DNA of 64,000 nt. Origin: Marinomonas sp. SBI8L. Lineage in GTDB: Bacteria; Pseudomonadota; Gammaproteobacteria; Pseudomonadales; Marinomonadaceae. A program made the position numbers and the translations under genes. The stretch is taken from contig NZ_JSEO01000010.1 in the NCBI RefSeq assembly GCF_001624705.1, positions 124,001 through 188,000 of the forward strand, written 5' to 3'. Every line of letters begins with the position of its first letter. The stretch's first letter is position 1. The notes beneath the pieces were generated by a model. That model was not told the origin of the DNA and made no database searches. It worked only from the letters and a program-made list of their open reading frames with translations. Of this stretch, positions 1,780-57,226 are shown in pieces.

Positions 1780-1897
1780 TTTAAGTATGTAGGAAAACTG
1801 AAAAAAAATTGTGTGAAAAGAGGTAATTGACTAATTGTTACATTGTTTAGCTGGTCTATATCCTTAATAATGTCCCAATCATTTATAAGGTTTTATT

Positions 1898-2347
1898 ATG
1901 AAAATATGGGTAGATGCGGACGCCTGTCCCAATGTAATTAAAAACATTCTATTTAAAGCGTCAGAGCGTACCAAAATAGCGTGTATTCTAGTGGCAAATC
2001 AAAAAATTAATACACCACCTTCTGCTTTTATATCGAGCCGACAAGTGAGCCAAGGGTTTGATGTGGCAGATGACTATATTGTTCAAAACATTGAAGCAGG
2101 TGACTTAGCTATTACAGCTGATATTCCCCTTGCCGCTGAAATCATAGATAAAGATGCCACAGCGATAAATCCTAGGGGAGAGATTTATACTAAGGAAAAT
2201 ATTAAACAAAGATTGGCCATGCGAGACTTTATGGAATCAATGCGTAGCTCTGGCATACAATCAGGTGGACCTGCTGCTTTTAGCCAGCAAGATAGAATGG
2301 CTTTTGCTAATTCGCTTGATAAGTTATTGGCCAATAAGGTTAAATAA
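1898..2347 (+). CDS. yaiI: YaiI/YqxD family protein (UPF0178, DUF188)
   Basis: A 149-residue soluble protein of the conserved UPF0178 family, the usual family length. The N-terminus [15 protein letters not shown] is the family hallmark, with acidic residues in the PIN-like fold thought to bind metal. Later conserved stretches include [13 protein letters not shown] and NPRGEIYT. The biochemical role is not established; a nuclease-like activity has been proposed from the fold. It stands alone between two terminator-like structures and has an AAGG ribosome site upstream of the ATG. Confidence 0.88.
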
Positions 2348-2397
2348 ATATGAGGGTGAATTGGTCGAGCGGTTAATATCACCCCATAAATAAAAAG

Positions 2398-2455
2398 AAA
2401 ATTCAGCTAATAGCTTTTACTAGAGCTCATAAACCGAAAGTTATTTGCTGAATTT
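2398..2455 (+). repeat. Inverted repeat in the yaiI-ndh spacer
   Basis: A 9-bp perfect stem (AAATTCAGC at 2398-2406 with GCTGAATTT at 2447-2455) is extended by four more pairs after one mismatch, and is followed by a short T stretch. It ends about 15 nt before the ndh start and just before its GAGGA ribosome site. It can act as the terminator of yaiI or as a leader structure of ndh. Confidence 0.55.
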
Positions 2456-2470
2456 TATTGAGGATTAGTT

Positions 2471-3760
2471 ATGAAACGCATAGTTGTAGTAGGTGGAGGC
2501 GCCGGTGGCCTTGAGCTTGTTACCCGATTGGGGCACAAGTTTGGTAAAACACGGCAAGCCGAAATCATTCTAATAGATAAAAGTCGTACTCATATATGGA
2601 AGCCTTTATTGCATGAAGTTGCGACAGGTTCTCTAGATATCAATACTGACGGCATTAGCTATCGTGCGCATTCAGCAAAACATTACTATCAGTTTCAACT
2701 TGGTTGTATGAATGGTATGGATGCTTCTAGAAAAGTGATCAAACTAGATGCATTGAATGATGATGAAGGGCATGAACTCTTGCCAGAAAGAGAGCTTAGC
2801 TACGATATTGTCGTATTAGCCATTGGTAGTGTGAGCAATGACTTTGGTACTCCAGGCGTTGCTGAAAACTGCTACTTCTTAGACTCTCATAAACAAGCTG
2901 AGCGCTTCCAACAAGCGTTATTGAATCAGTTCTTACGCATACAACAAGGAACGGATGAAGAGAACTTAAAACTCTCAATTGTAGGTGGCGGTGCGACAGG
3001 CGTTGAGTTATCGGCAGAGCTTTATCATGTTGCTGATCTGTTAAAAGCGTATGGTATGCCTGCGGTTTCAGCTAAACGTTTAGAAGTGGAGTTAATTGAA
3101 GCTGGTCAGCGCATTCTTCCAGCGTTACCTGATCGGATTGCAAATAGCGCCAGATCAGAACTGTCTCGTCTTGGTGTAAAGGTATCTGAATCAAAACGCA
3201 TTATTCGTGCGGAAAAAGAAGGCTTCATTACAGCTGATGAAACCCTTATTAATGCGGATATGATGATTTGGGCTGCTGGTGTGAAAGCACCTGATTTTGT
3301 TGCACAACTAGAGGGGTTTGAAACAAACCGGAATAACCAAATTCTAGTTAGGCCAAGTTTACAGTCTCAGTCTTTCGATAATGTGTATGTGATTGGCGAT
3401 TGTTGTGCTTGTGTGCAACCGGATGGTAGTTTTGTGCCACCAAGAGCTCAGTCTGCCCACCAGATGGCAAGCATGGTATTTAAAAACATCCAAGCCAGCT
3501 TCAGAGGGGAGCCGCTGCAAGATTATCTTTATAAAGACCATGGCTCCTTAGTGAACTTAAGCCGTTATAGTACGGTTGGAAGCTTAATGGGGAATTTGAC
3601 AGCAGGCTCTATGTTTGTAGAAGGGCGTATTGCACGCTTAGTATATGTGTCTTTATACCGATTACACCTCATAGCTATTCATGGGTGGACGAAAGCCATG
3701 ATAATCATGGCCGCTCAGAAAATTGGTAAAGTGGTTAAGCCTAAAATGAAACTTCATTAA
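2471..3760 (+). CDS. ndh: Type II NADH dehydrogenase (NADH:quinone oxidoreductase)
   Basis: Single-subunit, non-proton-pumping FAD enzyme that passes electrons from NADH to quinone at the inner face of the membrane. Its 429 residues match Ndh (about 430). The FAD dinucleotide fold is at residues 4-14 (VVVGGGAGGLE) and the NADH fold at 169-180 (SIVGGGATGVEL). The second FAD motif NVYVIGDCCA lies near 315, followed by the conserved PPRAQSAHQMA segment. The amphipathic C-terminal stretch that docks Ndh on the membrane is present. The ATG follows a GAGGA ribosome site. Convergent with the alpha-glucosidase gene and separated from it by a bidirectional terminator. Confidence 0.95.
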   Translation: MKRIVVVGGGAGGLELVTRLGHKFGKTRQAEIILIDKSRTHIWKPLLHEVATGSLDINTDGISYRAHSAKHYYQFQLGCMNGMDASRKVIKLDALNDDEGHELLPERELSYDIVVLAIGSVSNDFGTPGVAENCYFLDSHKQAERFQQALLNQFLRIQQGTDEENLKLSIVGGGATGVELSAELYHVADLLKAYGMPAVSAKRLEVELIEAGQRILPALPDRIANSARSELSRLGVKVSESKRIIRAEKEGFITADETLINADMMIWAAGVKAPDFVAQLEGFETNRNNQILVRPSLQSQSFDNVYVIGDCCACVQPDGSFVPPRAQSAHQMASMVFKNIQASFRGEPLQDYLYKDHGSLVNLSRYSTVGSLMGNLTAGSMFVEGRIARLVYVSLYRLHLIAIHGWTKAMIIMAAQKIGKVVKPKMKLH

Positions 3761-17527: not shown

Positions 17528-18532
17528 ATGATTAAAAGGATTGTTATCTTTGGAAAAATGGACTTAGCCATGCGCAAAATTTTCAATAAAAAGCTTCATC
17601 GCTATACTCTTGTGATTAGCATATCTCTATTTTGTGCTTTGATTTTTCTACAGGTAAGGGAATCAAAGCTTGGAACCTCATTTTTTGGGAATGAAAGTCC
17701 TGTTCTCGATAATATTTATCAAGGTTTGACTAGCTCGCCGTTGCTTAGTAGTTTTTTAATGGCGGTTTTAGGCTTTTTTATTGTCTCAAACGTGATATTA
17801 AGCTTGTTTGAAAAGCAAATTATCCCTGTGTTTGGTTTTCGTTCTGTTGATCAAAGTAGTGAGTCAAATATAGCCACCAAGACTCAATTGAGACATGGTA
17901 TCCCATCTGGTCAAAGTGAACCCAACCTACCATTAAACTCAAGTCTTTCTATTTTTGATGCGGTAATAAAATGTGAACTAAGTCGGCTTGAAGATGAAGT
18001 GTCAAGACTTAAGGTGAATGCAACCTCTATTGCTCAAACAAACCAAGTCATTGATAGTTTAATGGTTAGGATTAATACAATTATTCTTGATACGCAAAAG
18101 AATATTGATAACTTTCACGTTAATGTTCCAGCAGCACAAACATTACTTAAAGAATTAGACTTATTATCAATAAAGGCAGATACCTTAACGAAGGAGATAG
18201 CTAAAGCTATCGACAAATTACTTTTGGAAACAGATAAAAGAACAGCAAAGGTAAATAGCATAATTAGCCAAGTATTATTGGTGCCAAAAGATGGACAGAT
18301 ACCCGAAATTAATGATTATCTAAATGATTTTGATGGTGCTAGTAAATTGACGAATGAGCTGGCGTTAGAGCAAGCTGAGATAGCTCAAGATGTTAAAATG
18401 AAGCTAAACGAGTTGAGTGATATTGCTAAAGAGACTAATTTAAAGTCTCAATGCATAGTGAATTCGATGCGTGATATATCAAACACTAAACAAGAACATG
18501 AATCTAAAGCTACCAATATTGACGGCCATTAA
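17528..18532 (+). CDS. Hypothetical membrane protein, two TM helices plus cytoplasmic coiled coil
   Basis: No family recognised. Two hydrophobic helices lie near residues 28-45 (VISISLFCALIFLQV) and 72-96 (SSFLMAVLGFFIVSNVILSLF). A polar linker follows, then roughly 150-320 is a long heptad-rich helical region (for example ELSRLEDEVSRLKVNATS and ELALEQAEIAQDVKMKL). The overall shape resembles a chemoreceptor signalling arm but no MCP tip motif is present. Alternative ATG starts at 17558 and 17570 have slightly better ribosome sites than 17528. Possibly an envelope-anchored scaffold. It lies 94 bp after the ABC genes. Confidence 0.7.
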   Translation: MIKRIVIFGKMDLAMRKIFNKKLHRYTLVISISLFCALIFLQVRESKLGTSFFGNESPVLDNIYQGLTSSPLLSSFLMAVLGFFIVSNVILSLFEKQIIPVFGFRSVDQSSESNIATKTQLRHGIPSGQSEPNLPLNSSLSIFDAVIKCELSRLEDEVSRLKVNATSIAQTNQVIDSLMVRINTIILDTQKNIDNFHVNVPAAQTLLKELDLLSIKADTLTKEIAKAIDKLLLETDKRTAKVNSIISQVLLVPKDGQIPEINDYLNDFDGASKLTNELALEQAEIAQDVKMKLNELSDIAKETNLKSQCIVNSMRDISNTKQEHESKATNIDGH

Positions 18533-18626
18533 ACGAAAGTTGAGAATGAAATCTTAAATAGGTTTCCTAGACAAGAGCTTATCTGTAAAATAAACGCCTT
18601 TCTATGTATATGAATAGGGCAGAATA

Positions 18627-19343
18627 ATGGGTAGAGCCTACCAAAACCGTAAAGAGTCCATGGCAAAAACATCTGATGCCAAGGCAAAAGTTTATAGTAA
18701 ATACGGACGTGAAATTTATGTATGTGCGAAATCGGGCGGTATAGACCCAAATGGTAACCTTTCTTTGCGCGGTTTGATTGAGCGAGCAAAAAAAGATCAG
18801 GTGCCAACACATGTTATTGATAAAGCCATAGATAAAGCAAAAGGTGGCGGTGGTGAAGATTTTGATACCGCACGCTATGAAGGTTTTGGTCCAGGTGGCT
18901 GTATGGTTATTATTGATTGTCTAACAGATAACCCTAATCGTACCTTTGGTGATGTTAGAACCTGCTTTAACAAGGTTAAATGTAAAATCGGTACTCAAGG
19001 TAGTGCGAGTCATATGTTTGAGCATAGCGCTATTTTGTCCTTTGCTTGCGATGATGAAGAAGCTGTTCTTGATGCGCTCATGATGGCTGATGTTGATGTT
19101 GCTGATATTGAAAACGAAGAAGGTAAAGTGACTGTCTTCGCTCCTAATACGGATTACTTCAAAGCTAAAACCGCATTACTTGAAACTTTTGGTGAAATTG
19201 AGTTTGATGTAGATGAAATTCAGTTTTTACCACAAACGGTTTCTCCAATTGCTGAAGATGCGATGGAAAACTTTGAGCGTTTTGTTGATATGCTAAATGA
19301 CTTAGATGATGTTCAAAACATTTATCATAATGTAGAACTTTAA
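18627..19343 (+). CDS. yeeN: YebC/PmpR family protein, YeeN-type
   Basis: A 238-residue TACO1/YebC-family protein. The beginning [15 protein letters not shown] and the blocks [31 protein letters not shown] and [13 protein letters not shown] match the YeeN branch of E. coli rather than YebC proper. YebC proteins were long called transcription regulators; more recent work assigns family members to relief of ribosome stalling, so the exact role of this copy is open. There is no neighbouring ruvABC, consistent with the YeeN branch. Confidence 0.9.
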
Positions 19344-19364
19344 TTTTTGAGTTATTAGAAATAA

Positions 19365-19392
19365 AAAAAACCAGCTTCGGCTGGTTTTTTTA
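19365..19392. terminator. Bidirectional terminator with UUCG tetraloop
   Basis: An 11-bp stem (AAAAAACCAGC / GCTGGTTTTTT) closed by the very stable TTCG loop, with A and T tracts on both sides. Located between convergent yeeN and the disulfide reductase gene. Confidence 0.92.
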
Positions 19393-19405
19393 TTTATCAT
19401 TTTAA

Positions 19406-21541
19406 TTAATTTCTGCGCCAAGTATGGAAGCGTTTTAACCATGACATCGTTTTTTCTGGAATGTGAGCTCGTTTCCACTCGCCTGCCGCATACTTGTTTG
19501 CTTCAGCCATAGTTGGGTAGATATGTATTGTTCCAAGTATCTTATTAAGTCCTAAGCCATACTTCATTGCTTGAACATATTCAGCGATAAGATCTCCGGC
19601 GTGGTTGCCGACAATTGTAACACCTAAAATTTTGTCTTTTCCTGGTACTGTGAGCACTTTCACAAAGCCATCTGTTTGACGATCTGCAATGGCTCGGTCT
19701 AGTTCCTCTAAATCAAATTTTACGATCTCATATGGGATTTCCTGTGCTTTGGCCTCATCTTCACTTAGTCCCACTCTTGCAACTTCTGGGTCGGTAAAGG
19801 TTGCCCAAGGAATAACACGATAGTCGACAGCAAACTTTTTAAGGCTACCGAATAAAGCGTTGACGGCCGCAAACCAAGCTTGATGGGCGGCAGTATGTGT
19901 AAATTGATAAGAGCCAATAACATCACCAACACCAAATATATTTGGAATATTTGTTCTTAAGTAATCATCGACTACTAATGCGCCGTTAGCTGTCGTTTCA
20001 ACACCTAACTCTTCAAGACCTAATCCTTTAGTGTTTGGCGTTCTACCAACAGAAATTAAAAGGTTATCAAAAGGAACTCTTACTATCTGGTCATTGTGTT
20101 TGCATAGTAGGATTTTTTCATTACCTTCAAGAATCACTTCACTTGCTTCATGTAAAGTTAATAGGTTAACGCCTTCATTTTTAAACTTATTTGTTACCCA
20201 TAATGATGCGTCATCATCCTCACGCGGTAGGATTCTTGGGCCTCTTTCAATCTGTGTTACCTCAGCACCTAAACGATTAAATGACTGGGTAAGCTCACTC
20301 CCAATAGGGCCTCCACCTAGGATAATAAGACGCCCTGGGTTTTCACGTATAGACCAAATAGTGTCACTAGTATGGTAGTTAACAAGTTCCAGTCCTTTTA
20401 TATTTGGGATGAAAGGTCTTGCACCCGTTGCTATTACGATATTTTTAGTTGTAATTACCTTGCCATCAATTTCAACTTCGTAAGGTGAGATTATTTTTGC
20501 TGTGGCAGCGATGCATTCGACCCCAAGACCTTCATAGCGCTCTACAGAGTCGTGTGGTTCAACCTGCTTGATAACCTTGTCTATGCCTTCAAACACTTGG
20601 TTAAAGTCGATAGTAACAGATTCTGTATTAACCCCTAGATGACTCGCATCTCTTACTTCTTGGGCTGCATGAGCAGAACGAATTAAAGCCTTACTTGGCA
20701 CGCAGCCGGTATTTAGGCAGTCACCACCCATTTTATGCTTTTCGATTAATGCTACTTTTGCTTTCACTGCAGCGCCGATATAAGTACTCACTAGACCGCC
20801 TGCACCTGCACCAATTGCGACTAAATTATAATCATATTTTTTTGGCTTTTTAAAATGGGCGAAGGCTTTGCGGGATTTAATTGCTTCAACAATTTTTTTA
20901 GCCGCAATCGGTAAAATACCTAATAGGGCAAATGACAAGAATAAATCAAAGGATAAAATGCCAGATAAACTGTCAATTTTAGCAAGTTGAGTGCCCGCAT
21001 TTACAAATACGGCAGTGCCAGCAAGCATGCCAATCTGACTAACAAGATAGAAAGTTTTTGTTTTTATCGTAGTCAAGCCCATTAATAGGTTAATAACAAA
21101 AAATGGGAAAGCAGGTACCAATCGCAATGTAAATAAATAGAAAGCACCGTCCTTTTCAATGCCTTTATTAAAGGCCCTTAATTGATTCGAGAATTTAGTT
21201 TGGACGGTGTCTTTAAATAGGTATCTTGATGCAAGAAAGGCTAGAGTGGCACCGATCGAACTTGCAAAAGAAGCAATGAGTAAACCTTGATATAAACCAA
21301 AGATAGCACCAGCAGCTAAGGTTAATATTGCTGCACCTGGTAAGGACAATGCTGTAATTAAAACATAAGACAAGAAGAAGCCTGCTGCAATGAGAAAGGC
21401 ATGCTCTTGCTTAAGTTGTGAAAAATAATCCTGTTGAGATTTTAGAGCATCAAGATTTAAATATTGTTGTATATCAAAAATAACGAAAACAGACACCATG
21501 ATGGCAAAGAGTAAGAGGATTAGAAGTTTGCTTTTTTTCAT
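19406..21541 (-). CDS. VTT/DedA membrane domain fused to a flavin disulfide oxidoreductase
   Basis: A 711-residue fusion. Residues 1-225 are a TVP38/TMEM64 (VTT) membrane domain with the LRLVPAFPFFVIN motif at 139-151. Residues 236-711 are a class I pyridine-nucleotide disulfide oxidoreductase: FAD fold VAIGAGAGGL at 241-250, redox-active C275 and C280 in GGDCLNTGCVPSK, NAD(P)H fold LIILGGGPIGSE, and C-terminal dimer domain. At the position of the lipoamide dehydrogenase active-site histidine (HxHPT) this protein has Tyr675 (HIYPT), as in mercuric reductase. No mercury-binding CC pairs or mer genes are present. A membrane-tethered electron-transfer role is inferred; substrate unknown. Confidence 0.88.
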   Translation of the reverse strand: MKKSKLLILLLFAIMVSVFVIFDIQQYLNLDALKSQQDYFSQLKQEHAFLIAAGFFLSYVLITALSLPGAAILTLAAGAIFGLYQGLLIASFASSIGATLAFLASRYLFKDTVQTKFSNQLRAFNKGIEKDGAFYLFTLRLVPAFPFFVINLLMGLTTIKTKTFYLVSQIGMLAGTAVFVNAGTQLAKIDSLSGILSFDLFLSFALLGILPIAAKKIVEAIKSRKAFAHFKKPKKYDYNLVAIGAGAGGLVSTYIGAAVKAKVALIEKHKMGGDCLNTGCVPSKALIRSAHAAQEVRDASHLGVNTESVTIDFNQVFEGIDKVIKQVEPHDSVERYEGLGVECIAATAKIISPYEVEIDGKVITTKNIVIATGARPFIPNIKGLELVNYHTSDTIWSIRENPGRLIILGGGPIGSELTQSFNRLGAEVTQIERGPRILPREDDDASLWVTNKFKNEGVNLLTLHEASEVILEGNEKILLCKHNDQIVRVPFDNLLISVGRTPNTKGLGLEELGVETTANGALVVDDYLRTNIPNIFGVGDVIGSYQFTHTAAHQAWFAAVNALFGSLKKFAVDYRVIPWATFTDPEVARVGLSEDEAKAQEIPYEIVKFDLEELDRAIADRQTDGFVKVLTVPGKDKILGVTIVGNHAGDLIAEYVQAMKYGLGLNKILGTIHIYPTMAEANKYAAGEWKRAHIPEKTMSWLKRFHTWRRN

Positions 21542-40526: not shown

Positions 40527-40819
40527 TTAAGGAACCTACGAATAACTCCTCCCGCCTCAGCGTGTGAATAAAAACCGCTAGATTTATGGCGAGGAGCGCA
40601 ACTTAATAGTTATTCTATTAATAAGATTCTCAACATAAAGATAGGTTTTTTAGACCACGCCCTTCGGGTCTTTGAAGAATACCTAAACGGCATTTCAGAG
40701 AAAGTAACACCCTGTGTTGTCACTTCTCGAAAGGTACCTACATTACGTCAAAGTAACGCCTTGTGTGACACTTTTCCTGAAAAGACTGAGAAGAGGTGAC
40801 TTAATCGCAGGTTCCTTAA
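40527..40819 (+). repeat. MITE-like element, copy 2 (most complete)
   Basis: 293 bp bounded by TTAAGGAACC and GGTTCCTTAA. The outer ~32 bp form imperfect terminal inverted repeats, about 25 positions matching. Inside are a palindrome (TTAATAG-N5-CTATTAA near 40602), a CCCTTCGGG mini-hairpin and two tandem hairpin units that share AAGTAAC-N-CACTT. There is no ORF. The last bases provide the TAA stop of the binding-protein gene at 40816. Confidence 0.8.
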
Positions 40820-44509: not shown

Positions 44510-44643
44510 TAGGACTAACTTATCAAAACGAGAAGATTAGGGAGAACCTTATCAATTGAATAAGGATTAAGTTTCGACCCAATCCATAAATCTAGAGACA
44601 TTTCCACACACTGAGGCGGGAGGACTTATTCGCAGCGTCCTTA
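44510..44643 (-). repeat. MITE-like element, truncated copy 3
   Basis: On the minus strand, about 130 bp match the left part of copy 2: the terminal block GCGAATAAGTCCTCCCGCCT, then CTAGATTTATGG and a hairpin where CCTTAT pairs with ATAAGG. This hairpin differs in sequence from the TTAATAG/CTATTAA stem of copy 2 but keeps the pairing. The right half is missing. It occupies the gap between the propeller lipoprotein and the GT25 gene. Confidence 0.65.
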
Positions 44644-47038: not shown

Positions 47039-48187
47039 ATGGATAAAACCAGACGCCTTTGGATTTCAAGGCTTATAAAAGGCAGTGGATGCGCAGCGTT
47101 ATGTACAAACCATCCTTTGCTGACAGCCATTGAGTCGAGCTCTGAAGCTGATATTGCAATTCGAAACTCCGCTGAATACATAATGACTTATGCTTCCCCC
47201 TACGCAACTGATGCCTACAAATACTGCCCTCATATGCACCTTGAATTTAAAAAGAATATTGAAGAGATGTCTTCTGGCAGAATCTACGTTGATATCAAAG
47301 ACAAAGGCATTTTAGGAACAGGTCATGAGCTAATGGCGAAAGTGGCAAGAGGCGCTATCTCAGCAGGATTAGTCTCAGTTTCCAACTTAACACCCGCAGC
47401 CCCCGAGCTCGATATTCTTAATATTCCATTTTGGTCCGCTAAAGACCAAGCTTACTTAAACCTTGTTACCTCAAATACTTGGAAAGAGCTCATTATTGAT
47501 AGAGTAAAATCTCAAGGTAAATTAGATGTTTTATTCCATTACTTACCGGGGTCAAGAACAGCCAGCTCAACAATGAAATACGGTAAAGTCATCAGACGGC
47601 CCGACGAAGTTAAAGGCACCATCTTTCGTATACCTAATAGCAAGGCACTCAAAACCTTTTATGAACTAGCAGGCGCATCACCTGTCGATGTTGACTGGGT
47701 GAGCGTTGCTTCCATGGCCAAACATGGTCGGATTCAAGCATTAGACCCCAGCGTGATTGGCCTACATAACGGCCCTCGTGGTTTACGCCATCACGTTGGG
47801 AACATCTCACAAATTCAAAGTGTATATGACGGTTGGATAGCAGTAGTAAGCCAACAATGGTTTAACCGCTTACCTTTAGAATTAAAACTAGCACTCAAGG
47901 ATGCTTCTGAAAAAACCTTTAGAGAACATTTAAGCAGTATCAGCCAAGTAAGAGCAAACTGTACAAATAGCTTCGAAGACTTAGGCGCTAGCATTTATGT
48001 CCCCACCCATGAAGAAAGAGAAGAATGGATTAGACGATGTGGACCGAATAACGAAACATGGACCGCAATCAAAAGAAATATATTAGGAGACGATAAAACT
48101 TTCCAAAAGCTCGTCGATGCCACAAAAACCAATAATGGTTATAGCATTACCTCTTTAAACAATTTAGAAGGTTATTCATACAGTTAA
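47039..48187 (+). CDS. Orphan TRAP-type substrate-binding protein (DctP-like)
   Basis: 382 residues of the DctP/TAXI-like TRAP solute receptor type: IYVDIKDKGILGTGHELMAKVARGAI near 80 and IFRIPNSKALKTFYELAGASPVDVDW near 195 correspond to the conserved carboxylate-binding helix region. The N-terminus has a twin-arginine-like TRRLWISR followed by only a weak hydrophobic stretch, so export by Tat is possible but uncertain. No DctQ/DctM membrane components are nearby. Its stop is 3 bp from the tRNA-Val fragment marking the island edge. Confidence 0.85.
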   Translation: MDKTRRLWISRLIKGSGCAALCTNHPLLTAIESSSEADIAIRNSAEYIMTYASPYATDAYKYCPHMHLEFKKNIEEMSSGRIYVDIKDKGILGTGHELMAKVARGAISAGLVSVSNLTPAAPELDILNIPFWSAKDQAYLNLVTSNTWKELIIDRVKSQGKLDVLFHYLPGSRTASSTMKYGKVIRRPDEVKGTIFRIPNSKALKTFYELAGASPVDVDWVSVASMAKHGRIQALDPSVIGLHNGPRGLRHHVGNISQIQSVYDGWIAVVSQQWFNRLPLELKLALKDASEKTFREHLSSISQVRANCTNSFEDLGASIYVPTHEEREEWIRRCGPNNETWTAIKRNILGDDKTFQKLVDATKTNNGYSITSLNNLEGYSYS

Positions 48188-48189
48188 AC

Positions 48190-48232
48190 GGTAAGGCTAG
48201 GCAGATTCGAACTTTGACCTCATCCATGTCAA
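48190..48232 (-). repeat. Partial tRNA-Val copy, probable distal attachment site
   Basis: About 43 bp nearly identical to the 3' half of the tRNA-Val gene at 57150-57226 (3' acceptor strand, T-arm and right half of the anticodon arm, up to ATCCATGTCAA), with one base missing and a few changes. The 5' half is absent. Same orientation as the tRNA. This is the direct repeat expected when an element integrates into a tRNA 3' end. Confidence 0.75.
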
Positions 48233-48459
48233 AGTCAATTCAGAGCCGGAATAAACCTTTGAATCTAAAGGATTTTCGAGAATTTATTTCCAATTTTTTC
48301 TAGAAATCGTGCCCTTATAAATCAAGCACTTAGATGCAGAGTAGAAAACTCGTTTCCGAAGCTTTATTCTAGTTTACATTAGCACGTGAGTAAATAAAAA
48401 ATACTTTGCACTGACGGCTTTCTATTAAGGAGAAGCCATCATTGAAACAACAAAAGAGA
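48233..48459. other. Non-coding gap at the left island edge
   Basis: No gene seen. A stem (GACGGCTT with AAGCCATC, one mismatch) at about 48412-48441 may terminate the LRR lipoprotein gene, although it lacks a good T-run. Confidence 0.3.
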
Positions 48460-50046
48460 CTAAGAGCAGCTCGTAGTGTCCTTTATCACTAAAGTAGGGT
48501 TTTGGCCCATAAGCTCATTAATTTGATAGCAAGTTATTTTATTAAGACCGCTAATATCCAACGTTTTCAACTTTTGTAATGAATATAAAGGGCTAATATC
48601 CTCAACTTCATTGTCGCTCAAATCTAACTCTTCTAAATCAGATAACTTAGCTAATGATGAGATATCCTCGATTTGGTTGTATTTCAAATTCAATTTAGTA
48701 AGGCCTACAAGCGATTCTAAAGCACTAATATCGGTAAGATTGTTAGTAGAAACATTTAGGTTTTTTAAACCCACCATTCCTTTTAGATCATCAATGTTAT
48801 CCAACTTCATCGTATCTAAAAAAAGGGTCTCAAGTGACATTTTTGAAATATCAGACAGAGGTATATCTGAGCCATACAACTCAAGCTTAGTAACCGTGTT
48901 AAGAGTTTCTAGTTCCTGACTTCTAAAATTTGAATCTACATAATAAAGCTGCAAGCTTTCTAAAGTGTTCAAATTAGCAAGACTTGAAATATCCGTTACA
49001 TCTGTTCCATTAAGAGCTAAGTCAGTTATATTTTCCAAGCGGCTAATACGCTGAATATCAGTATTCTTCGTATAATAAAGCGTTAATTTAGTTAAGTTTT
49101 TAAGGCTCTCTAAAACGCCATAGTCAGCAAAGTCCAACTGTTCTGTTCTACTGTGACCACCGAGCCAAACTTCTTCTAGACTTGTTAAATTCGTCAAAGG
49201 GCTAAAGTCAGTAATCATATTACCGTCCAGCATGATGGCTTCTAAAGTTGGGTACAAACTTACCCACTTTAAATCGCTTAAACTTGTATTAATTAAATCA
49301 AGTGTTTTTAAATTCGGAAAAGGAGAGTCAAAGTTTGATACTAATGCAAGATTATTTACCTCACGGTCCCTTATCCCAAGAAACTCTAACGAAGGTAATT
49401 GACTTAAAATATACAGGTCATGGTCTGTAAGAGGGTCACCAAAATCATCACTAAAAGTACGAAGTTCGAGAAATTGCTCTATCCCTACCAAAGTATCTAA
49501 AGCTCTAAAGCCACAATCCAAAGTAATCACCTCAGACATATATACCCAGCCCTCACTCCGAAGGTAGCCATCTAAACATTGCTGCAAACCAATGCCTTTC
49601 ATTCTGCCTAAGTCAGAAATTTTAGGGTTAGGTAACAAGGCAAAACTCACCTCTTCACTCGTAACAACTTTATTGTTATGAATAACATCTAATGCAAAAC
49701 TAAGATTAATTTCATGAATCGAATTTGGCAGCGTTATAGTGGCAGAAGTCTCATTCTTACCAGACTTAAAGCTTGCTTGAGGAGCGATCTTTCCAGTTTG
49801 CTTCCATTCATACGAAAACTGATTACTTTTGATATTTCCAATAGCAGCATTCAGGTTTAAATCTAAATTTGAATAAACAGGTAATACGCTATCTATCTTT
49901 ACTGTTGGAATATCATCTAGAGGCAAATCAGTTGAACTACCAGAAGATGAGCTATCTGTCGCACTGCTGCTGGAACTATCATTTTCTGAAGAGCAGGCAC
50001 TCAAAATACCAAAAACAATACAATACTGAACTAAGCGTAAAAACAT
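48460..50046 (-). CDS. Leucine-rich-repeat lipoprotein (internalin-like)
   Basis: 528 residues. Signal peptide with lipobox LSAC, then a serine-rich linker (SSSSSATDSSSSGSS), an Ig-like segment (about 50-140), and 12 or so internalin-type leucine-rich repeats from about 185 to 515 (LEEVWLGG, LTKLNLKYNQIEDISSL, LEELDLSDNEVEDISPL). Probably an outer-membrane surface protein that binds other macromolecules. The frame starts at GTG 50055, but ATG 50046 with AGGTG 7 nt upstream is the better start. It lies inside the island and may be a cargo gene. Confidence 0.85.
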   Translation of the reverse strand: MFLRLVQYCIVFGILSACSSENDSSSSSATDSSSSGSSTDLPLDDIPTVKIDSVLPVYSNLDLNLNAAIGNIKSNQFSYEWKQTGKIAPQASFKSGKNETSATITLPNSIHEINLSFALDVIHNNKVVTSEEVSFALLPNPKISDLGRMKGIGLQQCLDGYLRSEGWVYMSEVITLDCGFRALDTLVGIEQFLELRTFSDDFGDPLTDHDLYILSQLPSLEFLGIRDREVNNLALVSNFDSPFPNLKTLDLINTSLSDLKWVSLYPTLEAIMLDGNMITDFSPLTNLTSLEEVWLGGHSRTEQLDFADYGVLESLKNLTKLTLYYTKNTDIQRISRLENITDLALNGTDVTDISSLANLNTLESLQLYYVDSNFRSQELETLNTVTKLELYGSDIPLSDISKMSLETLFLDTMKLDNIDDLKGMVGLKNLNVSTNNLTDISALESLVGLTKLNLKYNQIEDISSLAKLSDLEELDLSDNEVEDISPLYSLQKLKTLDISGLNKITCYQINELMGQNPTLVIKDTTSCS

Positions 50047-50623
50047 CCATGTCACCTATAACCAACGCAATATTGCGTACAAAAAACAAGGTGAGATTTT
50101 ATTTTTTAAGGTGAATACGATCTATTAGAGTTGGTATTAGATTTTTTAGTATTTAGTAACACTCAAGCCTTATACAGCACACCGCACTTCTGTAGTAACG
50201 AGAATTACCTGCAAACCAAGTATAGCAATCAATCAAATGACAAACAGTATTTAGCCTGCTTGTCTAAGTAAGAAAGCGCTTTAATGTTTATCTTGCTTGG
50301 ACGCTCGTTAGCCTCTGATTTTACAGCTTTTATTGAAGAAGCCCACAGCCTATTCCTACTAAACACACAGAAAATGTGGACTTTTCTTTGAGTTATTCAT
50401 CTGATCACACTCGTTTTTATTGTCTAAAAGTCACTACAAAAAATCCTTTGAGCAACTGGTATGGAAAGTTATATAAAGATAAAAAATGTCAACTTGTTAG
50501 ACACTTAGCTATTACCCAAAGCACAATGTTAAGAATAGATAACGCCCCTTGAACAACTCAAACTTCTCACCTAGCTTTTTAAGACAGCAGTAAAAACATA
50601 TGAACTAAAAAAAGAGAGTTACA
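50047..50623. other. Intergenic region inside the island
   Basis: About 570 bp between the LRR lipoprotein and the next small gene. No supportable reading frame, tRNA or repeat was seen. Confidence 0.3.
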
Positions 50624-50998
50624 ATGAATACTCAAAAATTACTGTCGATGACAATCAATGAGTATGAAAACTTAGAAAGCCAGATAAGTTTCATCATAAG
50701 CTCCCACGAGCCTCAAAACAGTTTAAAAAATGTTGTCATACATAATTTAAATTTTTTTGATGACTGGCTAATGAATGACATCAATGAAAGCATAAAAACA
50801 GATCAAAACTACCTAAGATCGGTCTGGCTTCATTCTGAACTGATACATGAAGTAAAAAGCATACTAGAAGATGCTGAAAATAATTACACAGAGGCCGTGC
50901 ACACCAGATTAGAAGAAAATAGTAAGTATAAAGTATTGTTTAAGAGACTATTATCGACATTAAAAAACTTGCAGGTCAGCCTAAACGACATCGAATAG
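50624..50998 (+). CDS. Hypothetical protein, helical
   Basis: 124 residues, acidic, almost entirely predicted helix (for example KSILEDAENNYTEAVHTRLEE), no signal peptide and no known motif. A GAGAG ribosome site precedes the ATG. Isolated in the island. Confidence 0.5.
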   Translation: MNTQKLLSMTINEYENLESQISFIISSHEPQNSLKNVVIHNLNFFDDWLMNDINESIKTDQNYLRSVWLHSELIHEVKSILEDAENNYTEAVHTRLEENSKYKVLFKRLLSTLKNLQVSLNDIE

Positions 50999-51026
50999 AA
51001 TAAGTTCTAGTAGGTTAGATCCCACC

Positions 51027-51314
51027 TTACCCAAAATCATTATTTTGCTGCTTGCCTAGCTTGTACATTAAATAAGTAAAATAAACCGTGTTGAAAGCAA
51101 CAAAAATGAGGTTTGGCAAGTTGTCAGATATCGCACCGACTTGTACAAGTGTTAGCGGGATAGCGACAACAGCCATGCACATAAACAACATAGCCGGATA
51201 CAGCCACCTATTTGTTTTAACCAATTTTGTCACGAATAAAACAGATACTCTTACCGCCAAAAGGGACAGTATCAAGAAAAATAGCTCGAGATACTCACTC
51301 TCAAATAACGCCAT
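51027..51314 (-). CDS. Small three-helix membrane protein, hypothetical
   Basis: 95 residues with hydrophobic segments near 9-27 (LFFLILSLLAVRVSVLFV), 37-57 and 66-82, typical of a small inner-membrane protein. The ATG at 51314 has AAAAGG 6 nt upstream; an earlier ATG at 51341 lacks one. The opposite strand carries a frame of similar length (51088-51381), which is a shadow. Function unknown. Confidence 0.5.
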   Translation of the reverse strand: MALFESEYLELFFLILSLLAVRVSVLFVTKLVKTNRWLYPAMLFMCMAVVAIPLTLVQVGAISDNLPNLIFVAFNTVYFTYLMYKLGKQQNNDFG

Positions 51315-51445
51315 ACATTGCCTTTTCGGTTGCCATAACAATAAACGTCAGATTTTAAACAGCATCATAGCAAAAGCCTAACACTTTATTAGGCTTTTCT
51401 AATATTCTAAATTACAGCCCTTATCGCCTGCTCTAAGCAGTCTTA

Positions 51446-52343
51446 TCAATAAACTTTACTGTTCATGTGTGCGACGTGCAGGCGCTCTCTGGCGATGCCG
51501 TATAGTCTGGGGTTGGTTGTTTTGAGTGTTGGGAAGATGGCGTCTTCGAAGTCTCTTTTCATCGCAGTGGTGTGGGAGTGGATGAGTTTCATATTGTACT
51601 CATAGAACTCTATGCGGCGCTCCATTGAGGCGACGTATTCGCTTGTAGGGCTGTCTGCTCTGCCTAGGTACTCGCCTTCTAACGCGGTTTGGATAAAGAT
51701 TAAGCCTTTCTCTAATTGTGCTGGGGTTGCCTCATCCAACTTACTTACACCTAGATAGTTATTCACCTCTTCGCCAATTTTAGCGCGCTCGACACTCATA
51801 TGGTGTTTAGAGCGTTTATTGGCTAGCGCTAAGATATTCCCTTCTAGCAAGTTGGCCATGGTTCTCGTCGCTTCGTTTGCTTGGCTATGTTGGGTGGGGT
51901 CGATCGCTGGGCTTTCTATTGCTGGAGAATGCGAGTTAGTGGCTTTGAGTTGGCGTTCATATCTAACAAAGAGCCGATGAAGTTGTGGCGGGCTTCGCGG
52001 CCTTTTAGTGCAGCTCTACCATGGCAAGCTCTTTCGCCATATCGAGAGTGATGAAGTAGTCTTTTGTTGGTCTACCGCCCGTATTTAGGGTTTTCGCCCG
52101 TTTTGGCGAAAACCCATTTTGATCATTTAAAGAGATCAAAATGAAGTCTTCATCTTCAACAAATTTATATTGATTGATTCTGGCTTTCATCCAATTAGAA
52201 AAGTCACGACCAACTTCTAAAAAGGTATGTAAATCGCGTGCGTTAACTGTATCGCAGTTTTGATTGTTTATTATGTGAGAATATAGTGGAAGGATTTCGG
52301 TTGAGTTCAAGCGTTCTGCTTGTATTGCAGATTGCATAGCCAT
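51446..52343 (-). pseudogene. Decayed phage antirepressor (AntA-type with ORF6C-like C-terminus)
   Basis: Two pieces of one former gene in different frames. Positions 52343-52005 encode the AntA/AntB domain (VNARDLHTFLEVGRDFSNWM, then GGRPTKDYFITLDMAKELAMVE) and stop early. The expected continuation KGREARHNFIGSLL is readable in another frame around 51990. The C-terminal part (51859-51446; NNYLGVSKLDEATPAQLEKGL) resembles ORF6C-type antirepressor tails. The first part has an excellent TAGGAGG site. In P1-like phages the antirepressor lifts lysogenic repression and is silenced by C4 RNA, whose gene lies just upstream here. Confidence 0.78.
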
Positions 52344-52400
52344 CTGTGGCCTCCTACGGTCTAATATTGACCACCGGATGAGGTACTAATCTCAAAAGGA

Positions 52401-52474
52401 GGTGGGTCTGAATTAGGTTAGTACTACCGCCCGTAGGAACGGCCTAGCCGAAGCTAGCCCAACAAAGACCCACC
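52401..52474 (-). ncRNA. c4: C4-type antisense RNA (phage P1/P7 immunity RNA)
   Basis: 74 nt closed by a perfect 8-bp terminal stem (GGTGGGTC with GACCCACC) with internal hairpins (CTAGC-TTCG-GCTAG). It lies directly upstream of an AntA antirepressor, as c4 does in the P1/P7 immI operon. The RNA carries GTACTAA on the minus strand (52418-52424), complementary to TTAGTAC in both flanking leader sites (52383-52390 just before the antirepressor ribosome site, and 52542-52549). This is the paired a'/b' target layout expected for C4. Assigned from structure, context and recall of the family. Confidence 0.7.
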
Positions 52475-52489
52475 ATAACAGGCGGATTC

Positions 52490-52526
52490 CGGCCACAAAA
52501 AAACACGCGGTGCGTGTTTGAGGCCG
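52490..52526 (-). terminator. Terminator-like hairpin in the antirepressor leader
   Basis: Reading the minus strand, AAACACGC pairs with GCGTGTTT across an ACC loop, followed by further T residues, all enclosed by CGGCC/GGCCG. Located between the leader target site and C4 RNA. Confidence 0.55.
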
Positions 52527-52614
52527 CTACGGAGAAACGGGGTACTAATCCCGACACTGGATTTTGCCAGTGCATTTAAATGGTAGACCTAAGAGGGTTT
52601 GGGTGTCAATGAAA

Positions 52615-53316
52615 TTATAAATTGTACTTACTAAGCTCATTCCCTGATAGTTTAGCTAGGCCAATGTTTGTAACATCATTTAATAGTTTTAAACAGTGTG
52701 CTTTTTCAAAGTTTGTTTCAGCTTCTTGAACCCTATTATTTAAATCATTTATAGCTTCAAAATACCCACTATCTAAATCTTCCCCATCTAAATTAATTTT
52801 TTTAAATAAGAATCTATCTAATCGACAAACTTCAATAGTATTTACTCCTTTAGCATTATTTTCTTTTGGGTAGTAAATCATTGATTTCTCCAGCCAACTA
52901 ATATGTTCAAAATAATGATCAAAATGAGGATGTACAATAATGTAATCAGACGATAAATCAGGGAATGTTTTTCTATTAGGGTTTTTCAGAACATTTTTCG
53001 CACCTTTAATAGTGTTACAGTCCTTACATGACAAGGCTAAGTTTTCTGGAGTAAACATAAATTCTTCTTTTACACTTTTAGAAATAATATGCTCTATATC
53101 CCAGCTACCACCATGATCAACAATAATTGTTTGTTTGCAATAACAACATGTATAGTTTTGAATCTTCAAATAATATTTTTTTATCTTTTTTTTAAGGTTC
53201 TCTAAGTTCTTATTATCTTGTAAATTCCAAAAAGAGGAGCATTTATTTTCATCATTTTCATACTCTTCAACAACTTTATTATCGTTTTCATCATAGACAA
53301 TAGGCTTAGATATCAC
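52615..53316 (-). CDS. ptuB: HNH endonuclease, PtuB-like (Septu anti-phage system)
   Basis: 233 residues. An HNH/zinc-finger nuclease: CCYCKQTI near 58, WDIEHIISKS near 73 and LALSCKDCNTIKGAKN near 92, giving the histidine-metal pocket plus two CxxC pairs that hold zinc. Size and position, downstream of and overlapping a ~470-residue ABC-like ATPase by 4 bp, match PtuB of Septu. In Septu the ATPase-nuclease complex degrades nucleic acid on infection and aborts phage growth. An alternative is a TIGR02646-type HNH protein; both usually occur with such ATPases. Confidence 0.82.
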   Translation of the reverse strand: MISKPIVYDENDNKVVEEYENDENKCSSFWNLQDNKNLENLKKKIKKYYLKIQNYTCCYCKQTIIVDHGGSWDIEHIISKSVKEEFMFTPENLALSCKDCNTIKGAKNVLKNPNRKTFPDLSSDYIIVHPHFDHYFEHISWLEKSMIYYPKENNAKGVNTIEVCRLDRFLFKKINLDGEDLDSGYFEAINDLNNRVQEAETNFEKAHCLKLLNDVTNIGLAKLSGNELSKYNL

Positions 53317-54719
53317 TTAGCAGCCTCCTCTACTTTAGACAGCACCTCTTCAAGCATAATCATTAAGTCGTACACAGGATCGTTCTCTAAAATAACCCCT
53401 TTTAAATCAAGAATACCTTTAGCATCAATTATCTGATCTTGATTTAGATTACCACTAGATCCAAAACTTGTTAAGAGCTTGATAATTGTTCTTGTTAAAA
53501 ACTCATTTTTAAATCCTGGAGTTTTAAAAACATTTGCCAATTGAAAATCAACAGACCTTTTATTATAATCAGTAGAAGGATGTAGTTTACGATCTGACAT
53601 TGACATAACAAAGCAATTTCTGTCACGTAACTTAGATATCATTAAGGGTGAATGAGTTGCAATTATAAAGTGGCAATTTTTATACTCTTCAAACGTTTTC
53701 ATCAACAGTTCAATATATCTCTCTTGCCATTTTGGGTGTAAGCATACTTCTGGCTCATCAATAAAAATCATTGAACTTTCACATATCTTACTTGCGATGC
53801 CAAGAATACTTAAAATCACACTTTGCTCACCAGAGCTTGCTTCGCCAATTAAAAACGGTTCCATTTTATTTTTCTTAGTTAATTTAATCTCCTTTAGAGA
53901 AATAATCCCACAGTTCAATATTAAATCTAAATAATCTGAAACATTAAAATATGAATCAGACCTAACACCTTTATCACTCAAACTTATATCGAACTTTCCT
54001 CCGCTGTAATTTAACAATATCAACTCAACAAAATCTAAAAAATGTTTTATCCTTTCAAAATTATAAACGTCATATTCATTCTCATAGTTATCAAAAAGTT
54101 CTTCATGAAAAAAGTAGGTATTTTGTTTATATTTTTGCTTTAAAATAGGTCTCAAATACTCATAAATAAAATTTTCAGTAGCATTACTTGACAATGATTT
54201 TTTTTCATAGTTTATAAAAGAATGAGAAAATTCAAATATTGCATTTATTTTCCTTTCAAAACCAATAACATCAAGAGCTTTTGTGATATTTATACAAATA
54301 GATTTATTATTAATCGCAGACTTTAAAAGTGAAGAATAAAGGCTCTCCATATAAATATGACCTAAACCATTGCCGTCACTTGATATATTAAATAACTTTC
54401 TCAAACCTAAGTAATGATAATCATTATTTTTACTTTCATTTAGCGGAAACCTGTCAAATGGACTCATAGATGCTGAAATTATATTTTGGGGTAATTTTTC
54501 GCCATAAAAGTTAAGTTTGAATAATAAAGCTAATTTACCAGCAATTATAGGTTCAAGGTTATTCTTAGAGCAAATACAATCCTCAATAATTTTTTTTAAA
54601 AGCCTACTTTTACCAGATCCATTTTCACCAACAATTATTGTAAATAAATTATCTATACTACTTACATCATTAGGTAATAACTGATAATTTTTTTCCTGAA
54701 AGGTAAAATTCTTCAACAT
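53313..54719 (-). CDS. ptuA: ABC/SMC-like AAA ATPase, PtuA-like (Septu anti-phage system)
   Basis: 468 residues. Walker A is VGENGSGKSRLLKKI near 29-44, an ABC-type signature-like EASSGEQSVILS lies near 290, Walker B is SMIFIDEPEVCLHP near 318, and FIIATHSPLMIS is the switch histidine (about 352). Low GC and Asn/Lys-rich relative to core genes in this window. Followed by an HNH gene overlapping 4 bp, the Septu arrangement. A retron reverse transcriptase, which sometimes recruits the same pair, was not found nearby. Confidence 0.82.
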   Translation of the reverse strand: MLKNFTFQEKNYQLLPNDVSSIDNLFTIIVGENGSGKSRLLKKIIEDCICSKNNLEPIIAGKLALLFKLNFYGEKLPQNIISASMSPFDRFPLNESKNNDYHYLGLRKLFNISSDGNGLGHIYMESLYSSLLKSAINNKSICINITKALDVIGFERKINAIFEFSHSFINYEKKSLSSNATENFIYEYLRPILKQKYKQNTYFFHEELFDNYENEYDVYNFERIKHFLDFVELILLNYSGGKFDISLSDKGVRSDSYFNVSDYLDLILNCGIISLKEIKLTKKNKMEPFLIGEASSGEQSVILSILGIASKICESSMIFIDEPEVCLHPKWQERYIELLMKTFEEYKNCHFIIATHSPLMISKLRDRNCFVMSMSDRKLHPSTDYNKRSVDFQLANVFKTPGFKNEFLTRTIIKLLTSFGSSGNLNQDQIIDAKGILDLKGVILENDPVYDLMIMLEEVLSKVEEAAK

Positions 54720-54750
54720 TACAAATATAATCCTTTAATAAATCACACTA

Positions 54751-55293
54751 TCATTTATTCTTATCTGTCTGATAAATGTCATACCATCTTCCGACTCTAA
54801 GAAGAGCAAAAGTTGCAGCTAATGTTAAAGATAATGCATATATAAACACCCAATATCCTATGAAATTTCCAACAATAATCATATCGTGAAAATATCCATT
54901 AAAAAATTCAACAAAGGGATGATCTAACGGTAAACTAAAATCATATGCTTTCCTAAACAAAGCTATAAATAAAGCAACTACCTGCAAAACTATAAAATGA
55001 ACAAAAGCACCGTTTAACGATAAAAACGGTGATGCACCATCTTCATCACCATCATCACCAGCAATTAAACTTCTAAATTTTTCATCGCCAATTGCTAAAA
55101 ACATTGCATACCCACCTAATGAAAATCCCAATAAGTTCGGCATAATTGACAGAACATCATCCCACCAACCTGAAGCAGACCAATGAGGAAATAGTGCAAT
55201 ACTTATGAAAAAGGAACCATAAAGGTAATAGCTCTTAAGCAGAGCTCCAAAACCTCCATATGCTTTATAATAAACACTTAGAATGTTACTCAT
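54751..55293 (-). CDS. Four-TM membrane protein of the defence cassette
   Basis: 180 residues with hydrophobic segments at about 19-35, 49-66, 93-113 and 138-165. An acidic cytoplasmic or periplasmic loop (AGDDGDEDGAS) lies between the second and third. It is 25 bp downstream of the DUF4747 gene and 31 bp upstream of ptuA, all on the minus strand, so one operon is likely. No family recognised. In abortive-infection systems such small membrane proteins often act as pore-forming effectors; that is an inference here. Confidence 0.7.
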   Translation of the reverse strand: MSNILSVYYKAYGGFGALLKSYYLYGSFFISIALFPHWSASGWWDDVLSIMPNLLGFSLGGYAMFLAIGDEKFRSLIAGDDGDEDGASPFLSLNGAFVHFIVLQVVALFIALFRKAYDFSLPLDHPFVEFFNGYFHDMIIVGNFIGYWVFIYALSLTLAATFALLRVGRWYDIYQTDKNK

Positions 55294-55318
55294 AGCATCT
55301 CTCGACTATAAAATTTAT

Positions 55319-56215
55319 TCACTTTGATAGTTTATTACTCAGTATAGTTTTAAGTTTGCTAGTCATCCTATACATAAAAGCTATGGGCATTGACTCTTCT
55401 GAAGGGTCATACATTTCAGTCTCTTTGAAAGGCTGGCTTACAGTAGAATATTCAATTGGTTTGCTAGCATGGTCACGACCCTTTATTTTAAGGCTTCCAT
55501 TTTTTGCAGCTATATGGGCTAAAACTTTTAAGCCATCATCTACTTCAATGCTTTGCTCTGCATCTGCAATGAACTTTTGCTCAATTCTTTGAACTTTATT
55601 TTTCTTCATCCTATTCAGAAATGCTGCTTCTTCTTTTGCGAATGAATCTGGATTCGGCTTTTTAAAAACTGTCTCGATACTTCTCTTAAAAGGAATATTT
55701 AACGCTTCTTCTAAACCATTAATATCAGGTAAATGCGTTACCTCTACTTCTCCAAATTTTTCTACTATTTCTTCTTGAGAAAATAACTTATTAAAAAAAT
55801 CTGTAGCCACAGTTGGACCTAAAGTTTTTTTGTCATAATAAGACTCATAAAATAGCATGTGTTTATCCGGATAAAATATATAGGAAAACCTGCTTCCATT
55901 TGGCCTTAAGTTTGGTGGAATATTTAGACTCTCTTTATCATCATCAGTAGCTATGTCATTGGTTTCAATATTTATCCATGGAGCATCAGTATCTATTTGG
56001 GTAAACCGCCAAATGTCACCAGTTACAGGCTTAATTGAATCATCACACCAAGGGTAACTTCGTACTCCAGCTAACAAAGCACCCGATGTAGAGTTCAACT
56101 TAACCACTCTTTTCAATTTAAATGCAGCCTTAAATAAATCTACATATTTTTTCTCGCTGTGCGGCTGAATTGTTATGTTTATAGCTCCAACAGACATTCT
56201 TTTCAGACTTGCCAT
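55319..56215 (-). CDS. DUF4747-like protein of the defence cassette
   Basis: 298 residues, no signal peptide. The layout MSVGAINITIQPHSEKKYVDLFKAAF, FSYIFYPDKHMLFYESYYDKKTLGP and FFNKLFSQEEIVEKFGEVEVTHLPD resembles DUF4747 proteins, soluble proteins of unknown function found sporadically in accessory regions. The C-terminal third is basic. AAGGAT precedes the ATG. First gene of a four-gene operon with a membrane protein and ptuAB; likely sensor or regulator of the membrane partner (inference). The DUF assignment is from memory. Confidence 0.68.
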   Translation of the reverse strand: MASLKRMSVGAINITIQPHSEKKYVDLFKAAFKLKRVVKLNSTSGALLAGVRSYPWCDDSIKPVTGDIWRFTQIDTDAPWINIETNDIATDDDKESLNIPPNLRPNGSRFSYIFYPDKHMLFYESYYDKKTLGPTVATDFFNKLFSQEEIVEKFGEVEVTHLPDINGLEEALNIPFKRSIETVFKKPNPDSFAKEEAAFLNRMKKNKVQRIEQKFIADAEQSIEVDDGLKVLAHIAAKNGSLKIKGRDHASKPIEYSTVSQPFKETEMYDPSEESMPIAFMYRMTSKLKTILSNKLSK

Positions 56216-56334: not shown

Positions 56335-56907
56335 TCATCCTACACTCGCCCTCACCAGCACCCTATAGCCCTGCTTATTCCCACTGGCGGTGACGGACTC
56401 TATTCGCCACTCTCCAGCTAAAATCGTAGGGAAACTCCCATCTAATATCAGCTGAGCCCCTACGACTAGCGCCTTGTGATCTGGTATGTTGCTTGGTACT
56501 TCTAGGGTGAGCTTAGACCCTTGCTTACGCTGTGTTTTTAAGAGCTCGTCTTTGGCTGCTTTCATGGCGGTGGCTTGGGTTGAATAGGCTTGCCGCAATT
56601 TCTTAAAAGGCGCACTGCCTGTGCTGATGGTGTGCTCCTCCCCTGTTTCGCTGTCGGACCAGCTGGCTTTGATGCCGCTCACGGTTGTGCGACTTGATTG
56701 CTCTAGTTGGCAGTTGATAAAGCCGCTGTCGCTGGGTGTGTTCTTGCTCGGCATGGATAAGGTGACTATGGGTAGACGCTGGCCTGAGAGGGTTTTCTCT
56801 CGTCCTTTTGGAGACAAGACGTATAAATCGTTAACCGGCTTTGCGATGGCGTCTCGCTCTCTGGCAAGCCTTGTCAGAAAGGCCACGTCTGTTTCATCAC
56901 TTCTCTT
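56335..56907 (-). pseudogene. Truncated phage late control protein D (P2 gpD-like)
   Basis: About 190 codons of the C-terminal part of a gpD/baseplate-hub protein: DETDVAFLTRLARERDAIA, SGQRLPIVTLS and GEWRIESVTASGNKQGYRVLVRASVG at the end. Intact P2-type gpD is near 380 residues; the N-terminal half is absent and a TAG closes the frame at 56908-56910. Upstream, in another frame, a short stretch (VTAHGFSPRAASEYEDEL, about 56985-56925) could be a scrap of an integrase catalytic domain (TAHGFR-like), but that is speculative. Confidence 0.78.
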
Positions 56908-57149: not shown

Positions 57150-57226
57150 TGGTAGGGCTAGGCAGATTCGAACTGCCGACCTCATCCATGTCAAGGATGC
57201 GCTCTAACCAACTGAGCTATAGTCCT
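57150..57226 (-). tRNA. tRNA-Val (anticodon GAC)
   Basis: 77 nt with encoded CCA. D-arm GCTCAGTTGGTTAGAGC, anticodon arm CATCC-TTGACAT-GGATG (anticodon GAC), variable AGGTC, T-arm GGCAG-TTCGAAT-CTGCC. The acceptor stem (5' AGGACTA, 3' TAGCCCT) has an A4-C69 mismatch, consistent with the 3' half having been replaced by an integrating element. The 3' half is duplicated at 48190. Confidence 0.95.

Follow-up and report, generated by a model that had tools for sequence, protein, structure and literature searches.

A probable RexAB-type module, distinct in sequence from known Rex systems, beside a Septu pair in Marinomonas sp. SBI8L

We analyzed a 64,000-nucleotide stretch of the Marinomonas sp. 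SBI8L genome (the window; positions 124,001 to 188,000 of contig NZ_JSEO01000010.1), in which four consecutive minus-strand genes encode a DUF4747 protein, a small transmembrane (TM) protein, and the PtuA ATPase and PtuB HNH nuclease of the Septu defense system (Table 1). The layout described in an initial sequence-only reading was confirmed: all four reading frames are full-length and, in the order DUF4747, TM, ptuA, ptuB, are spaced by 25 bp, 31 bp, and a 4-bp overlap. The 31-bp gap suggests that the DUF4747/TM and ptuAB modules are co-transcribed. The genes had also been described as AT-rich and unlike their flanks, which holds for the immediate surroundings (26 to 36% guanine-plus-cytosine [GC] versus 45 to 46% directly on either side, in 1-kb windows) but not for the left-hand end of the element (positions 48000 to 51499), which is likewise AT-rich at 33 to 37% GC. 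Judging by their E-values, the family assignments are not chance matches.

Table 1. Genes, RNAs, and repeat sites at the locus, in window coordinates
Feature	Position	Strand	Basis or remark
DUF4747 protein, 298 aa; proposed RexA-like (predicted RdgC/RexA-fold) sensor	55319-56215	-	PF15931
TM protein, 180 aa, four-helix; proposed RexB-like membrane effector	54751-55293	-	Hydropathy, AlphaFold2 (AF2) model, gene order
PtuA, Septu ABC/OLD-type ATPase, 468 aa	53313-54719	-	PADLOC PtuA1 and motifs
PtuB, Septu HNH nuclease, 233 aa, GTG start	52615-53316	-	PADLOC PtuB1, PF01844
C-terminal fragment, gpD-type phage tail protein	56335-56886	-	phrog_52, 3.1e-34, profile positions 341-511 of 677
isrK RNA, 41 bp 3' of ptuB	52498-52573	-	Rfam RF01394, 65.1 bits (cutoff 50)
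C4 antisense RNA	52395-52480	-	Rfam RF01695, 52.2 bits (cutoff 45)
AntA antirepressor, short open reading frame (ORF)	52005-52343	-	PF08346, 5.5e-27
tRNA-Val(gac), likely integration target	57150-57226	-	3' end repeated at 48190-48213
Partial copy of tRNA-Val 3' end; probable far att site	48190-48213		24-nt direct repeat, 96%

The DUF4747 and TM genes belong together as one unit. PF15931 is rare, occurring in 1 of 57 relatives, 1 of 369 genomes of the class, and 7 of 398 genomes of the phylum (each count includes the window's genome), and at all nine loci found through DUF4747, in 6 other genomes and 3 plasmids, the next gene downstream encodes a homologous four-TM protein. The reverse scan, with an alignment of the TM protein (A6), yielded 23 viral contigs and 12 genome contigs confirmed by tblastn, in which upstream DUF4747 genes were scored by a profile built from ten sequences, the window included (A1). 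A DUF4747 gene lies directly upstream on the same strand in 33 of these 35 loci; the remaining two (L031 and L038) have just 0 and 163 bp of sequence ahead of the TM ORF. Some loci came up in both scans, and removal of duplicates left 36 distinct loci, window excluded, 35 of which carry both genes with TM directly 3' of DUF4747; the other begins at a contig end. The objection that the two genes might rarely occur together fails because they do co-occur. The distance between them is -29 to +38 bp in 41 of 43 two-gene loci (duplicates counted), and the two loci at -179 bp are the same sequence, for which we suspect a wrongly called start. DUF4747 and TM protein distances correlate (Mantel r of 0.796 for 36 pairs including the window, reached in 0 of 5,000 shuffles, maximum 0.402), a value to which common descent of the carriers contributes. 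Among these carriers, the records name Gammaproteobacteria, Burkholderiaceae, Magnetococcales, Mariprofundaceae, Niveispirillum, and assemblies of Spirochaetes and Bacteroidia.

The Septu pair is separate from the DUF4747/TM pair. No ptuA or ptuB homologue was detected in the 36 distinct other DUF4747/TM loci (blastp, 1e-5); in 25 of them the sequence runs on for at least 2.5 kb downstream, and zero in 25 makes an association rate above about 11% unlikely. Conversely, six inspected Septu-bearing loci gave no DUF4747 or TM match with E values up to 1. They comprise 3 of the 57 plasmid records matched by PtuA (from E. coli, Comamonas, and V. coralliilyticus), 1 of 6 such phage records (a Vibrio phage), and both same-genus genomes with a match (G026, and G008 at the 4.4-kb locus L054 around its PtuA match only). 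An HNH or PtuB gene adjoins ptuA in the inspected plasmid and phage loci, and a ptuB match adjoins ptuA in G026. The ptuAB pair of this same-genus genome (L071, G026:C6, about 18343 to 19443), which has no DUF4747 beside it, lies ∼6 kb from the thioesterase gene there.

The sequence-only assignment of the ATPase and nuclease to Septu was borne out by PADLOC models (PtuA1, 386 bits, 7e-116; PtuB1, 231.6 bits, 1.9e-69), and PtuB also matched PF01844. PtuA retains the motifs GENGSGKS, SSGEQ, IDEP, and ATHSP, and its Walker A and B regions are conserved in an alignment with three plasmid homologues. Among the same number of PtuB sequences (four), C57-x2-C60, E75-H76, N92, and C97-x2-C100, which are HNH and zinc-type residues, are invariant. 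The window proteins share 32 to 37% identity with the three plasmid relatives and resemble, by description, the E. coli EcB88 Septu, likewise an adjacent ATPase and HNH pair. In the accessible part of its report, EcB88 cleaves tRNA-Tyr and requires both the ATPase and the HNH motifs (PMC13096335). The best phage-borne relative, annotated as Septu PtuA/PtuB by its depositors, lies near a 186-type integrase in the Vibrio phage, consistent with the window ptuAB having come from a phage. The PtuA/PtuB proteins of type I-A retrons (Ec78) were considered and rejected, as scores fell below the NCBIfam equivalog cutoffs (59.9 versus 500 and 26.4 versus 150 bits).

The DUF4747 protein matched PF15931 (214.5 bits, 2.3e-63) and the function-unassigned PHROGs family phrog_10040 (207 bits). 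The TM protein matched another function-unassigned family, phrog_20580 (130.7 bits), but nothing significant in Pfam, where its best E was 0.21. Neither protein hit a model of PADLOC or NCBIfam, even with E values as high as 1. Its count of hydrophobic segments depends on the hydropathy cutoff (four at 1.25, two at 1.6), and its AF2 model (predicted local distance difference test score [pLDDT], 90.4) has long helices consistent with four segments. The 15 solved structures ranked closest to the DUF4747 model in the PDB are all RexA, CENP-N/Chl4-type chains, Iml3, or RdgC; RdgC, IML3, and CHL4 are named among RexA relatives in the accessible portion of PMC11077077. Based on the model, the DUF4747 protein is predicted to have a RexA/RdgC-type fold, and no catalytic motif was recognized among its conserved residues. 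Given the pairing, co-inheritance, and predicted fold, the earlier suggestion of a second, separate module holds up, and its two proteins look like a sensor and a membrane effector.

By sequence, membership in the lambda RexAB family was rejected. The window pair matched neither PF15969/PF15968, the families of lambda RexA (PDB 8TWQ) and RexB, nor the PADLOC 2023 RexA and RexB models at E up to 1, whereas the lambda proteins as controls scored 327 and 305 bits (Pfam) and 364 and 202 bits (PADLOC). The window also differs from lambda, where cI stands beside rexA/rexB, in having no adjacent cI. In the structural sense the pair is RexAB-type, with a cytoplasmic partner of predicted RexA/RdgC-type fold and a small four-TM protein directly downstream as in 35 of the 36 distinct relatives. 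Available descriptions of CarolAnn gp44/gp43 and Sbash gp30/gp31 give the same layout, a RexA-like cytoplasmic protein and a four-TM protein, both needed and abortive. Sbash is likened by description; CarolAnn gp44 (370 aa) and gp43 do not match the window pair's families. Neither RexA nor gp44 matched PF15931 at E up to 10, and hhalign of both window proteins against lambda Rex and CarolAnn gave probabilities below 1% (0.2% and 0.1% for gp44/gp43), a weak test with single-sequence templates. The P. putida RexABpp system (PP_5643/PP_5644), a RexA-fold DNA-binding protein with a four-helix membrane-damaging effector, is likewise similar by description (PMC12894663, the accessible text of which does not mention DUF4747).

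The question of whether the pair already has a name can largely be answered yes: an EMBO J 2026 paper, whose accessible main text does not contain the term Septu, treats a “DUF4747/CarolAnn prophage system” (RexAB-type) as one system, with 17 cases behind CapKS. The PADLOC 2023 RexA and RexB models miss the window pair. In the accessible text, the DUF4747 label on the CarolAnn proteins is attributed to a weak HHpred hit, and the match of Butters gp30 is also weak (HHpred E of 140). The absence of PF15931 matches for RexA and gp44 and the low hhalign probabilities therefore indicate that the printed label on RexA, Sbash, and CarolAnn proteins rests on weak hits, and the structural link between RexA and the DUF4747 model supports the idea behind it. 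Our literature search, which left subscription papers aside, found no PF15931 protein whose function had been tested, apart from these weakly assigned ones.

Based on gene content, full-length frames, the DUF4747-TM pairing, the absence of ptuAB at the other loci, and the fold of the DUF4747 model, we consider it probable that the locus holds two independent abortive-infection-type modules in tandem, carried as cargo by a decayed prophage at tRNA-Val. By analogy with RexABpp, in which RexA binds DNA and the four-helix RexB damages membranes (PMC12894663, accessible text), the cytoplasmic DUF4747 protein would bind DNA, sense phage replication or a phage protein, and trigger the TM protein, whose presumed channel activity would permeabilize the inner membrane and stop growth. 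Separately, PtuA would control PtuB, which would cut its putative target upon infection.

An unlikely alternative, proposed from experiments on Butters gp30/gp31 as far as their description is accessible, is that the DUF4747 protein is itself antiviral and is held at the membrane by the TM protein until infection. The lack of a recognized catalytic motif and the need for both genes in RexABpp, CarolAnn, Sbash, and lambda, with the membrane protein as effector (PMC12894663, accessible text), argue against it. Somewhat less likely still, the pair could tune a lysis-lysogeny switch, with exclusion as a side effect, as proposed for lambda RexA, which biases that switch (PMC11077077, accessible portion). 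The window pair does share its element with a C4/AntA remnant, the pair of L036 lies near an S24 repressor, and in L012 a CI repressor (PF07022 and S24; 1814 to 2602, minus strand) is the next gene upstream, an order we liken to lambda cI-rexA-rexB and also count toward the main RexAB-type reading. Against a switch-tuning role, annotation shows no phage repressor near some pairs, such as those of two small Acinetobacter plasmids, and the divergent pair of L016 (G496:C89) has genes for a GmrSD-type protein and for a large helicase (PADLOC Orf5- and PLD_Helicase-like) as neighbors, resembling a defense island.

A single four-gene system, in which DUF4747 and TM serve an extended Septu as sensor or anchor subunits, would suit the common strand, the short gaps suggestive of one transcript, and the low GC of all four genes. 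This idea, also raised in the sequence-only reading, is very improbable given that ptuAB was not found at the 36 other DUF4747/TM loci (25 of them with 2.5 kb or more downstream), nor either partner at the six Septu-bearing loci inspected. Least credible is a co-transcribed two-stage unit in which opening of the membrane effector by the DNA-bound DUF4747 sensor leads to an ATP or ion drop that also frees PtuB from an ATP-gated PtuA brake, coupling membrane collapse to tRNA or DNA cutting.

The two modules lie between phage remnants, as initially noted, with a tail fragment upstream that we presume to be gpD-type and, downstream, isrK and C4 RNAs (52395 to 52573, minus strand) between ptuB and a short AntA ORF, which covers positions 5 to 93 of the best PHROGs Ant family (210 positions). 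We take the isrK/C4/AntA stretch to be the remnant of a prophage C4/ant-type immunity region. The tRNA-Val repeat copies, spaced 8,961 bp start to start, with similarity extending by eye beyond 48213, probably bound an element of about 9 kb. Of 15 mechanically called ORFs of at least 60 aa between them, nine were scanned (the operon, a leucine-rich-repeat gene, 50624, 51446, AntA, and the tail fragment), and no integrase was recognized among these; ORF 50624-50998 had only subthreshold integrase-domain (E of 0.066) and excisionase (E of 0.076) matches. The lack of a recognized integrase, the remnants, and the tRNA-Val repeat therefore suggest a decayed element. Two of 20 same-genus regions show the uvrB-thioesterase-tRNA-Val order, and none of eight island genes tested was detected in those two. 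The element also encodes a 531-aa leucine-rich-repeat protein (48460 to 50055, minus strand) with an N terminus that is lipoprotein-like by eye. Elsewhere in the window, a 39-nt inverted repeat (40528 to 40566 and 44605 to 44643; 87% complementary, 4 kb apart) flanks a 598-aa FG-GAP repeat protein, and its 21-nt core occurs twice in the window and in 0 of 100 shuffles.

We conclude that an ordinary Septu likely has as its tandem neighbor a module that is RexAB-type, as predicted from its model, but belongs to a family distinct in sequence. In accessible print, “DUF4747” labels RexA, Sbash, and CarolAnn proteins from weak profile matches; genuine PF15931 members, predicted to be RexA-like, come consistently with their TM partner as a two-gene module in several bacterial groups, and our searches detected no sequence similarity of this module to lambda RexAB or CarolAnn. 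Should the module act as Rex does, the 70-year-old exclusion system would have an uncommon, widely spread, sequence-distinct sister family missed by the PADLOC 2023 models, and a new example would be at hand for studying the poorly understood Rex trigger. The tandem with Septu permits a clean test of cooperation between neighboring abortive systems.
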